In this document: positions 1 to 1,865 of the stretch, in pieces | Position numbering within the stretch: position 1 is the stretch's first letter | Layout: every line of letters starts with the position of its first letter | NCBI RefSeq assembly: GCF_021590045.1 | Contig: NZ_CP062221.1 | Span: 1,550,001 to 1,614,000 of the forward strand | Length of the DNA stretch: 64,000 bases | Reading direction: 5' to 3' | Source: Cellulomonas palmilytica | Lineage (GTDB): Bacteria > Actinomycetota > Actinomycetes > Actinomycetales > Cellulomonadaceae | The notes under the pieces: model-generated | Told to the model about the DNA's origin: nothing | The model's input: only the letters and a program-made list of their open reading frames with translations | The model's database searches: none | Made by a program: the position numbers and the translations under genes

Positions 1-108
1 GCCGAGCTGCGTGAGCTGCGACGCCGCAACCGGCTCCTCGAGCAGGAGGTCGAGGTGCTGCGCCGTGCGACGGCCTACCTGTCCCAGGCGCACCTGCCGG
101 GAAAATGA
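1..108 (+). CDS. IS3-family transposase OrfA, C-terminal fragment (cut by window edge)
   Basis: Frame 1 is open from the first base to a TGA at 106-108. It encodes an arginine/glutamate-rich helix with a heptad-like leucine pattern (LRELRRRNRLLEQEVEVLRR), typical of the leucine-zipper end of IS3 OrfA proteins, which bind the terminal repeats and multimerise. The stop overlaps the orfB start (AATGATG), and orfB lies in the -1 frame relative to orfA. That is the arrangement used by IS3 elements for a -1 frameshift OrfAB fusion or translational coupling. The helix-turn-helix part is to the left of the window. Confidence 0.85.
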   Translation, partial: AELRELRRRNRLLEQEVEVLRRATAYLSQAHLPGK

Positions 109-980
109 TGTACCCGCTCGTGAAGGAGCTCGCCGGTGACGGGATCCCCGTCGCGGTGACGTGCCGGGTCCTCAAGCTCGCCCGACAGCCCTACTACCGC
201 TGGCTCGCCGCCCCGGTGACCGCGCACGACCTGGACGAGGCATACCTGGCCAACGTGCTGTTCGACGCCCACGTCGACGACCCGGAGTTCGGGCACCGGC
301 TCCTCGCCGACGAGGCTCACCGTGCGGGTCTGCGCGCGTGTGACCGGCGGGTCTGGCGAATCTGCCGGGACAACGCATGGTGGTCGGTCTTCGGCAAGAA
401 GCGCGCCAGGAACGGCAAGAAGGCCGGCCCGCCGGCGCACGACGACCGGGTGCTGCGGATCTTCCGCGCCGATGCACCGAACCGGTTGTGGCTCTGGGAC
501 ATCACCGAGCACGCCACGGCCGAGGGCAAGCTGTACCTGTGCGCGATCAAGGACGTCTACTCCAACCGGATCGTGGGGTACTCGATCAGCGACCGCATGA
601 AGTCCCGGATCGCCGTGAACGCCCTGGCCAGTGCCGTGCAACGCCGTCGTGACGTGGCCGGTTGCATCGTGCACTCGGACCGGGGCAGCCAGTTCCGCAG
701 CAGGAAGGTCCTGCGCGAACTGGACCGTCACGACCTGCTCGGATCCATGGGCCAGGTCGCATCGGCCGGGGACAACGCGGCCATGGAGAGCTTCTTCTCG
801 CTGCTGCAGAAGAACGTTCTGGACCGCCGCCGCTGGGCCACCCGGGCGGAACTTCGCCTGGCGATCATCACCTGGATCGAACGGACCTACCACCGCCGCC
901 GCAGGCAAGCCCGACTCGGCCGACTGACACCCATCGAGTTCGAGGCCATCATGACCACTCAGGTAGCACTCGCCGCCTGA
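105..980 (+). CDS. IS3-family transposase OrfB (DDE integrase core)
   Basis: This 291-aa protein has the retroviral-integrase-like catalytic core of IS3 transposases. The DDE triad is visible: Asp132 in WDIT, Asp192 in HSDRGSQF and Glu228 in AAMESFFS, giving the expected DD(35)E spacing. An N-terminal HTH_21-like segment and a C-terminal region ending in LTPIEFE complete the family layout. The length matches intact OrfB proteins, so the copy looks functional. It acts with OrfA, or as the frameshifted OrfAB, in copy-out transposition. The first ATG at 105 overlaps the orfA stop; a second ATG follows immediately at 108. Confidence 0.93.
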   Translation: MMYPLVKELAGDGIPVAVTCRVLKLARQPYYRWLAAPVTAHDLDEAYLANVLFDAHVDDPEFGHRLLADEAHRAGLRACDRRVWRICRDNAWWSVFGKKRARNGKKAGPPAHDDRVLRIFRADAPNRLWLWDITEHATAEGKLYLCAIKDVYSNRIVGYSISDRMKSRIAVNALASAVQRRRDVAGCIVHSDRGSQFRSRKVLRELDRHDLLGSMGQVASAGDNAAMESFFSLLQKNVLDRRRWATRAELRLAIITWIERTYHRRRRQARLGRLTPIEFEAIMTTQVALAA

Positions 981-1012
981 GACCCGCTGTCACCTATCCG
1001 TGCAGCAGTCCC

Positions 1013-1342
1013 CTGCGTCGTCGACATGTGGTCGGTGAGCGCCGCGCGTACGGACACCTCCACGCGTTCGAGGGCATCCATCACGAGGAGGCGCAACGCG
1101 CGGTCGAAGACGTAGAGATCCAGGACGTCGTCGAACGCGGCTCCGGCGCGGAACCGGTGCTCGGCGCCTCGATCCTGGAAGGGGATCGTGTACGGCGAGA
1201 GCCGGTAGTACCCGATGTGTCGGAGGTACCGGGCGGCCTTGGTCTCGTCAGGGATCGCGAGCCCGCGCTCCTCGAGCCGGCCCACGAGTCCTTCGATGGT
1301 CATCGCAGGTTTGGTGTAGCGCAGCGAGCCTCGCGGTCGCAC
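1013..1342 (-). pseudogene. Abi_2 (AbiD/AbiF-type) abortive-infection gene, truncated by the IS
   Basis: The minus-strand frame encodes the N-terminal third of an Abi_2 protein: YTKPAMTIEGLVGRLEERGL, a YLRHIGYYRLSPY block, then FDRALRLLVMDALERVEVSV and RAALTDH. These are the family's conserved N-terminal blocks, and RAALTDH fits the HEPN RNase pattern R-x(4-6)-H. The frame then runs into IS sequence at about 1013, so roughly 110 of about 300 residues remain and the second catalytic half is missing. The start is uncertain: GTG at 1342 or ATG at 1303; the ATG would remove the conserved YTKP block. The other half may lie left of the IS, outside the window. Confidence 0.8.
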
Positions 1343-1382
1343 GGCCCTGCGAGCCGAATGGACCCCCTGGAGGACAGAGAAA

Positions 1383-1419
1383 ATCCCCCAAGTGCGCTTC
1401 TGCGAGAGGCGTGGGGGAT
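1383..1419 (-). ncRNA. Strong hairpin in the abi leader, candidate abi-associated RNA
   Basis: A perfect 8-bp stem (ATCCCCCA at 1383-1390 pairs with TGGGGGAT at 1412-1419) encloses a second short stem with a GCG loop. Read on the minus strand it is followed at once by a T-rich run (TTTTCTCT), unusual in this GC-rich DNA, so it could end a small RNA. It sits 41 nt upstream of the abi GTG start on the same strand. Conserved structured RNAs are known next to abiF-type genes (the abiF RNA motif). Placing this hairpin in that class is my inference from position and shape. Confidence 0.35.
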
Positions 1420-1502
1420 CTAGTGCGGCGAGGCTAGCACGGCGGCGAACCTGCGGGTGCGATATGGGCCTACGCTCGGTGGAGAAGCTGCGGAGGGGCG
1501 AG

Positions 1503-1865
1503 ATGAGCAACGAGCGCGTGTTCCGGATGACGTTCGCGTCGATCTACCCGCTGTACGTGACGAAGGTCGAGCGCAAGGGGCGCACGGTCGACGAGCTGCA
1601 CACGGTGCTGACGTGGCTCACGGGCTACGACGAGGCGGGGCTGCGCCGGGCGATCGACTCGGAGGTCGACCTGCGCACGTTCTTCGCGCAGGCCCCGGCG
1701 ATGAACCCGAACGCGACCCTCATCACGGGCGTCATCTGCGGCTACCGGGTCGAGGAGATCGCCGACCCGCTCATGCAGCAGCTCCGCTGGATGGACAAGC
1801 TCGTCGACGAGCTGGCACGCGGCAAGAAGCTCGCCTCGATCCTGCGCGCGGAGAAGGTCGGCTGA
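1503..1865 (+). CDS. DUF2200 family protein
   Basis: This 120-aa protein matches the DUF2200 pattern: an RVFRMTFASIYPLYVTKVERKG start, LTWLTGYDEAGL, then the C-terminal LASILRAEKVG. Family length is about 120 aa, so it is full length. No biochemical function is established; the proteins are small, soluble and widespread in bacteria. The ATG at 1503 is chosen because GGAGGGG lies 5-6 nt upstream; a TACGCT -10 box at 1471-1476 would give a short leader of about 20 nt. The upstream frame to 1392 runs through the abi hairpin region and is not coding. Confidence 0.85.
   Translation: MSNERVFRMTFASIYPLYVTKVERKGRTVDELHTVLTWLTGYDEAGLRRAIDSEVDLRTFFAQAPAMNPNATLITGVICGYRVEEIADPLMQQLRWMDKLVDELARGKKLASILRAEKVG

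Follow-up and report, generated by a model that had tools for sequence, protein, structure and literature searches.

A probable AbiF-type toxin-antitoxin module with a broken toxin gene and a surviving RNA in Cellulomonas palmilytica, and toxin-less relatives of the RNA in bacteria and phages

The stretch of DNA analysed here, referred to as the window, comprises 64,000 nt (bases 1,550,001-1,614,000) of the single-contig 3.83-Mb genome of Cellulomonas palmilytica (G000). Judging from its sequence, its left end carries, with a probability of roughly 0.85, an inactivated AbiF-type RNA-protein toxin-antitoxin module with a surviving and probably expressed RNA (Table 1). The preliminary description had likewise proposed a decaying locus in which the toxin is dead while the RNA survives; indeed, the toxin gene contains an insertion sequence (IS) and a frameshift, whereas no lesion was visible in the RNA. 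In intact relatives, a promoter is followed by a short hairpin RNA with a terminator-like T tail and then by the gene of a HEPN ribonuclease, probably expressed by read-through. The hairpin RNA would bind and silence the ribonuclease, as was shown for the AbiF/RCd22 system of C. difficile. Together, the IS3-like element, a shifted frame and the missing usual start codon have destroyed the toxin gene. Since the RNA and its promoter retain every conserved feature, the RNA is probably still made. We infer that the toxin was lost first, which would be allowed because loss of the antitoxin first would be harmful.

Table 1 Positions of the module and its neighbours. Positions are those of the window unless given as G000:C1 (genome coordinates).
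Feature	Position	Strand	Basis
Right part of 1,251-bp element, presumably IS3-like	1-1007	+	whole element G000:C1:1549757-1551007; ends read by eye
Transposase, rve integrase core	105-980	+	PF00665, 68.5 bits
3-bp target repeat GTC	1008-1010; other copy G000:C1:1549754-1549756		by eye
N-terminal piece of broken AbiD/F-type Abi_2 gene	1011-1342	-	PF07751; PADLOC AbiD
C-terminal Abi_2 piece	G000:C1:1549378-1549620, left of window		PF07751, 78.2 bits
Putative abiF-type antitoxin RNA hairpin with T tail	1379-1419	-	RF03085, 32.3 bits at 1383-1418; model R1, 66.1 bits (window among its training rows)
Predicted extended -10 of the RNA, TGCTAGCCT	1431-1439	-	11 nt before hairpin
DUF2200 gene, divergent neighbour	1503-1865	+	PF09966, 172.5 bits

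The toxin gene was found in two pieces, both above the PF07751 (Abi_2) cut-off. In agreement with the Abi_2 N-terminus noted in the preliminary description, a Pfam search gave 72.9-74.3 bits (cut-off 25.6) at 1019-1342 of the minus strand, and PADLOC also assigned this piece, to AbiD. The piece, whose first in-frame GTG is at 1342, corresponds to the first third of an Abi_2 protein, ends at the IS3-like element and is 76% identical to the protein of an intact gene in another genome of the genus (G037). The C-terminal piece contains RNVCAH, which fits the HEPN motif R-N-x-C-A-H, and is frameshifted, with the blocks DPHWYVDPHHF and SLEHYLTTYASPELPPSW in two different frames. The insertion and the frameshift thus leave no intact reading frame. 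Furthermore, where most homologues have an ATG after a GGAG-type site, the aligned window lacks a start codon by eye, so that at least two kinds of lesion (IS and frameshift) are accompanied by a missing usual start. The HEPN-like R-x5-H earlier placed in the N-terminus is present as RAALTDH, but it is not the HEPN motif: its histidine is unconserved (C. marina has RANLTDT), and the true motif is the RNVCAH of the other piece. The claim that an IS3 element cuts the gene was borne out by the transposase, the inverted repeat (TGCTGCACGGATAGGTGACA; right end at 1007 by eye), the GTC repeats and the C-terminal piece beyond the IS. The label IS3-like is our assumption. A single full copy of the IS was found in the genome, together with 8 partial matches of 66-86% identity. 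The G037 protein was 100% identical to that of a Cellulomonas sp. URHD0024 locus and matched PDB 8vz6 ('Abi family protein') with an E of 7e-49. A further weak Abi_2 match lies elsewhere in the C. palmilytica genome (G000:C1:577391-577561; 18.4 bits, or 27.7 with in-frame neighbours).

The hairpin consists of an 8-pair outer stem (5 G-C), a 3-pair inner helix and a T-rich tail, and lies 41 nt upstream of the first in-frame GTG of the toxin gene, in agreement with the strong, T-tailed hairpin noted in the preliminary description. The 138-nt leader folded with a z-score of -2.34, and 4 of 200 shuffles folded equally well. When the abiF RNA family of Rfam (RF03085) was searched, as had been proposed, it aligned end to end (all 37 model positions covered and none of the pairs flagged as non-standard; E 6.8e-4 for the 651-base region and 9.2e-4 genome-wide). 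This match was the only one reported in the 3.8-Mb genome (973 candidates, 150 scored), yet its 32.3 bits stay below the Rfam gathering score of 37 and do not confer formal membership. Whereas a default Rfam scan of the window gave no abiF match, an E-value scan of the short region revealed it. We therefore class the element as an abiF-type RNA by its homology to the G037 copy, not as a formal Rfam member. The outer stem and the loop GCCUCUC...GA(U/A)GC are present, as is every invariant position of our alignment A5. A lineage model, R1, built from 12 actinobacterial hairpins of which the window is one, scored the window hairpin at 66.1 bits. The loop of the window is the variant GCAGAAGC, the commoner actinobacterial loop being CACGATGC; the GAAGC class occurs naturally, as in Nocardia (L029) and Aeromicrobium (L044). 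Because GCAGAAGC also stands unchanged before a full-length AbiF in G731, the window RNA bears no sign of decay. The loop classes (C)GATGC and (A/G/T)GAAGC recur in bacteria and phages (A5 columns 17-22); their changes seem coupled, perhaps reflecting a non-canonical contact.

Subsequently, conservation was examined at 47 loci obtained by scanning genome contigs with the Abi_2 proteins of G037 and G027. The hairpin was present 51-100 nt before the protein match in 29 of the 29 actinobacterial loci found by protein, so that the expected conservation upstream of homologues was confirmed. An extended -10, TGnTAnnnT, accompanied it: TGnTA and the last T occurred in at least 80% of 31 aligned rows and are intact in the window, and no conserved -35 was seen in this alignment. 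In the alignment of 12 actinobacterial sequences, 9 of 11 pairs were invariant and pair 8-30 covaried (A-U in 8, U-A in 2, G-C in 1, unpaired in 1); 257 of 500 shuffles had at least as many pairs with both partners changed as the real alignment, and covariation from Actinobacteria alone is thin. The toxin was broken by frameshift or deletion beside hairpins that look whole in 6 of the 29 loci (L042, L045, L046, L051, L052 and L061), some of which may be draft-sequence errors; one more toxin was cut by a contig end. Outside Actinobacteria, 2 of 18 AbiF loci tested had an abiF RNA above the Rfam cut-off, and the link between RNA and AbiF is thus not universal at that threshold. Most of these relatives (L053-L072) have no such RNA above the cut-off; theirs may be of another class.

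Within the genus, RF03085 matched at E<=0.1 in 5 of 81 genomes, 4 of them convincingly, and the locus is rare and probably mobile; the match in G026 (24.2 bits) was rejected as false, as by eye it lies inside a helicase-like reading frame. In G037 (41.3 bits, above the cut-off) and likewise in G027 (contig C30; 32.3 bits), the RNA is followed by an intact Abi_2 gene. In C. marina (G027, L020) and on plasmid pT75-VIM (L495, 430-5049), RNA and Abi gene are embedded in a type I restriction operon (methyltransferase, RNA-Abi, HsdS, helicase subunit); by eye, the frame preceding the RNA in C. marina resembles an HsdS protein. The DUF2200 neighbour, matched by DNA in 56 of the 81 genomes, is found together with the hairpin in the sister species G076. 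There, a deletion has removed almost all of the toxin gene, fusing its first codons to an MFS transporter gene, and no Abi_2 match was left genome-wide at E<=1e-3. The G076 hairpin equals that of the window in 41 of 42 columns, compared with 59 of 85 and 56 of 75 in the flanks (69-75%). This identity may date from before each toxin loss, and we accordingly rejected it as proof of selection after the loss. The first base of the -10 in G076 is changed from T to C, and given this change its RNA may be silent. In G031, the MFS and DUF2200 regions are about 170 nt apart with no RNA or toxin match between them, and the RF03085 and Abi_2 searches were also blank there. This empty site implies either insertion of the module after the lineages had split or its loss in G031.

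Toxin-less copies were also found beyond the genus. Among 396 genomes of the order, R1 found 29 matches, distributed over 28 genomes (E<=1e-8); within about 1.5 kb downstream, as searched by tblastn and an AbiF HMM, 12 had a full AbiF, 3 a broken one and 14 none. The HMM, built from 38 full-length proteins, recovered 27 of 29 Pfam-found Abi_2 loci (2 of the 27 also in its training set), and loose tblastn beside orphan RNAs gave mostly low-complexity noise and was used for clear remnants only. The broken ones are the window, G560 (in pieces) and G796a (internal deletion). In the last (L128), AbiF is cut to a 128-residue frame with the RNA kept, 14 kb from an island orphan RNA. The 14 toxin-less loci are not independent, as those of G795, G772, G711, G573 and G796b lie on one common island (L144-L148). 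G795 and G772, of different families, are 99.9% identical over 11.2 kb, and the other three are about 88-95% identical to G795 in pieces. Judged from its protein sequences, this island is presumably one of arsenic resistance; the gene convergent with its orphan RNA had no Pfam match at E<=0.1. Abi_2 was then searched in 19 genomes, namely 16 with a toxin-less RNA plus G000, G560 and G194. No match at E<=1e-3 was obtained in 8 of the 16 (G076, G788, G610, G506, G694, G798, G757 and G244), and G711, G573 and G796 have another, intact Abi_2 gene some 2 kb away from the RNA and beyond the part common with G795. A JetD (Wadjet) gene adjoins the altered orphan RNA of G694 (L136). In a class-wide draw, 10 of 394 genomes matched at E<=1e-4, those beyond the top five weakly (at most 31 bits). 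Among the top five, the orphan sequence of G244 recurs in a viral contig (L170), and G194 shows no more than a short N-terminal frame resembling AbiF. Three Rhodococcus plasmids matched, one with AbiF after the RNA and a second without any match to the G037 protein in the surrounding 4 kb; two hairpins queried against E. coli genomes gave no match.

These data bear on two rival accounts of the window RNA, each of which we regard as possible but less likely than not. In one, the hairpin is by now no more than a relic, or a common intrinsic terminator, and persists by chance after a recent toxin loss. Its terminator shape with a T tail, the altered orphan hairpins (by eye) of G694, G674, G788, G798 and G757, and the frequency of broken toxins beside intact hairpins (the 6 of 29 loci above) would fit this. 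However, the loop, for which a terminator has no use, is the same in the window and G076 despite their diverged flanks, and the two or more lesions of the toxin gene imply that the loss is not brand new. In the other, held with equal reserve, a toxin-less RNA is kept as protection from AbiF on incoming plasmids, phages or islands (anti-addiction). The abundance of toxin-less hairpins (14 of 29 loci), the island spanning families with its five copies and the 8 genomes free of Abi_2 matches speak for it, whereas several orphans are altered and the five island copies represent one lineage. That the hairpin is unrelated to AbiF and its sub-threshold score fortuitous is hardly credible, as the match is unique in the genome, full-length, and in the correct place and strand, its G037 homologue passes the cut-off, and the hairpin precedes AbiF in all 29 loci.

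The same hairpin was found in viral contigs. Scans of IMG/VR with patterns fixing loop and stem gave 8 actinobacterial-type and 91 consensus-type hairpins. Among the 88 loci listed (8 + 80), AbiF was downstream in 1, absent in 77 and unassessable in 10 too short, that is, adjacent in 1 of 78 with at least 350 nt of downstream sequence. Further scans freed the loop or the stem. With the second loop half free, 96 stretches were obtained; among the 80 listed, 66 were distinct, comprising 31 with GATGCNCA, 34 judged by eye to be near variants (with GAAGC, with GGAAGC or altered after GATGC) and 1 unrelated. When the whole loop was freed and the stem and T tail fixed, there were at least 120 matches, and the 66 distinct among the 80 listed included 19 with the strict abiF loop, about 18 near variants (by eye) and about 29 other hairpins. 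Fixing the 16-base loop alone also gave at least 120 matches; here the 66 distinct among the 80 listed had a perfect 6-bp stem in 49 cases, 5 of 6 pairs in 15 and 4 of 6 in 2. The 49 perfect stems use 25 different sequence pairs, compared with 792 perfect stems in 4,658 (17%) when arms of different loci were paired, a control raised by allowing G-U pairs and several offsets; a few matches are probably due to chance, and a control pattern of equal composition matched 2 contigs. In the loop-only sample, AbiF was downstream in none of the 74 assessable among the matches listed (6 were too short). The 1/78 and 0/74 samples overlap and count AbiF adjacent to the RNA, not elsewhere in the viral genomes. 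Since the HMM finds 27 of 29 Pfam-found loci, the absence of AbiF is not detection blindness. Thus, in the sampled viral contigs the RNA is nearly always without AbiF, and its loop and compensating stems are conserved. On the other hand, 24 of 57 distinct viral hairpins lie at most 26 nt from the stop of an upstream frame, like terminators, which counts against a pure antitoxin role.

In named phages, the hairpin lies between the connector and scaffold genes in the Aeromonas T7-like phages PZL-Ah8 and T7-Ah, between the o-spanin and capsid genes in Rhizobium phage Pasto, and among tRNA genes in cyanophages S-CREM1 and S-SZBM1; S-SRM01 and Salicola phage CGphi29 also have it. The annotation of the flanks examined shows no Abi gene (for S-CREM1, in the 4 kb around the RNA). 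The Rfam abiF cut-off was passed by 9 of 10 phage loci tested, Pasto being below it. Over 38 nt, the copies of PZL-Ah8 and CGphi29 show no difference from the RNA that precedes the full-length AbiF of a proteobacterial locus (L059). At their common site, PZL-Ah8 and T7-Ah share a 20-nt loop part exactly and differ in two compensated pairs. In PZL-Ah8 the element CCCTGACTATAGGGA, which we take by comparison with T7 promoters to be a promoter for a phage RNA polymerase, occurs three times in 6 kb, also before the capsid gene; the copy preceding the hairpin stops 15 nt short of it. The T tail, which a terminator should have, is weak or missing in the S-CREM1, T7-Ah and Pasto copies. A paper of 2000 reportedly bears a title stating that a region of phage sk1 protects phage 712 from AbiF; a link to the abiF RNA is unsupported, as sk1 had no abiF match in Rfam at E<=5.

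In the passages of the literature available, the closest known system is AbiF/RCd22 of C. difficile phi027, in which the RNA binds and silences the HEPN toxin (PMC12373285). The intact relatives described here resemble it in having an Abi_2/AbiD-F HEPN toxin, an abiF-motif RNA upstream, a terminator between them and probable read-through; the toxin motif is RNQCAH there and RNVCAH in the C-terminal piece of the broken gene. In contrast, RCd22 comprises two motifs, its terminator being separate (PMC12373285), whereas the window has a single motif, with the T tail directly on its stem, and a dead toxin. By analogy, the window module may have had a type III-like (RNA-neutralised) function. A review figure legend gives PDB 8VZ6 as the PbAbiF-ncRNA complex; PbAbiF-AbiFr belongs to the protein family of the G037 homologue and has one RNA per monomer (PMC12737573). 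It comes from a Prevotellaceae bacterium and its toxin is intact, whereas that of the window is broken. The primary paper for PbAbiF-AbiFr is Zilberzwige-Tal 2025. An abiF sRNA is annotated in S-CREM1, with mention of three phage sequences in Rfam (PMC9964418); it is of the same Rfam family, a single annotation for which the passages available propose no anti-AbiF role. The parts available of a review call the role of abiF RNA unconfirmed, and those of a 2024 paper call it of unknown function. In the portion of the literature searched we found no proposal that phage abiF RNA counters AbiF, an earlier mention being possible (e.g. Weinberg 2017 or Zilberzwige-Tal 2025), and no functional test of a toxin-less phage copy. 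Phage PhiTE pseudo-ToxI (PMC3475682) and RNA anti-CRISPRs (PMC10651486) are, as here, solitary RNA partners of host defence systems carried by phages, although of other defence families.

We are slightly inclined to a broader reading, in which solitary abiF RNAs are a widespread RNA counter-defence by which T7-like phages, cyanophages, prophages and mobile islands would silence host AbiF, and the window RNA would illustrate the chromosomal origin of such copies. Phages appear to maintain the RNA in the absence of the toxin, and antitoxin mimicry may be the simplest reason for this; pseudo-ToxI and the RNA anti-CRISPRs are precedents. The window is a clear case of a dying toxin gene with a whole antitoxin RNA, and an abiF RNA match by itself does not imply that an AbiF system is present. 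It leads to the testable claim that the AbiF antitoxin RNA is a common solitary element in phages. AbiF is related to Cas13, which presumably descends from it. If the claim holds, phages would exert strong counter-selection on AbiF, and RNA mimics carried alone, such as pseudo-ToxI and the RNA anti-CRISPRs, would be a general route, now reaching the lineage near Cas13.
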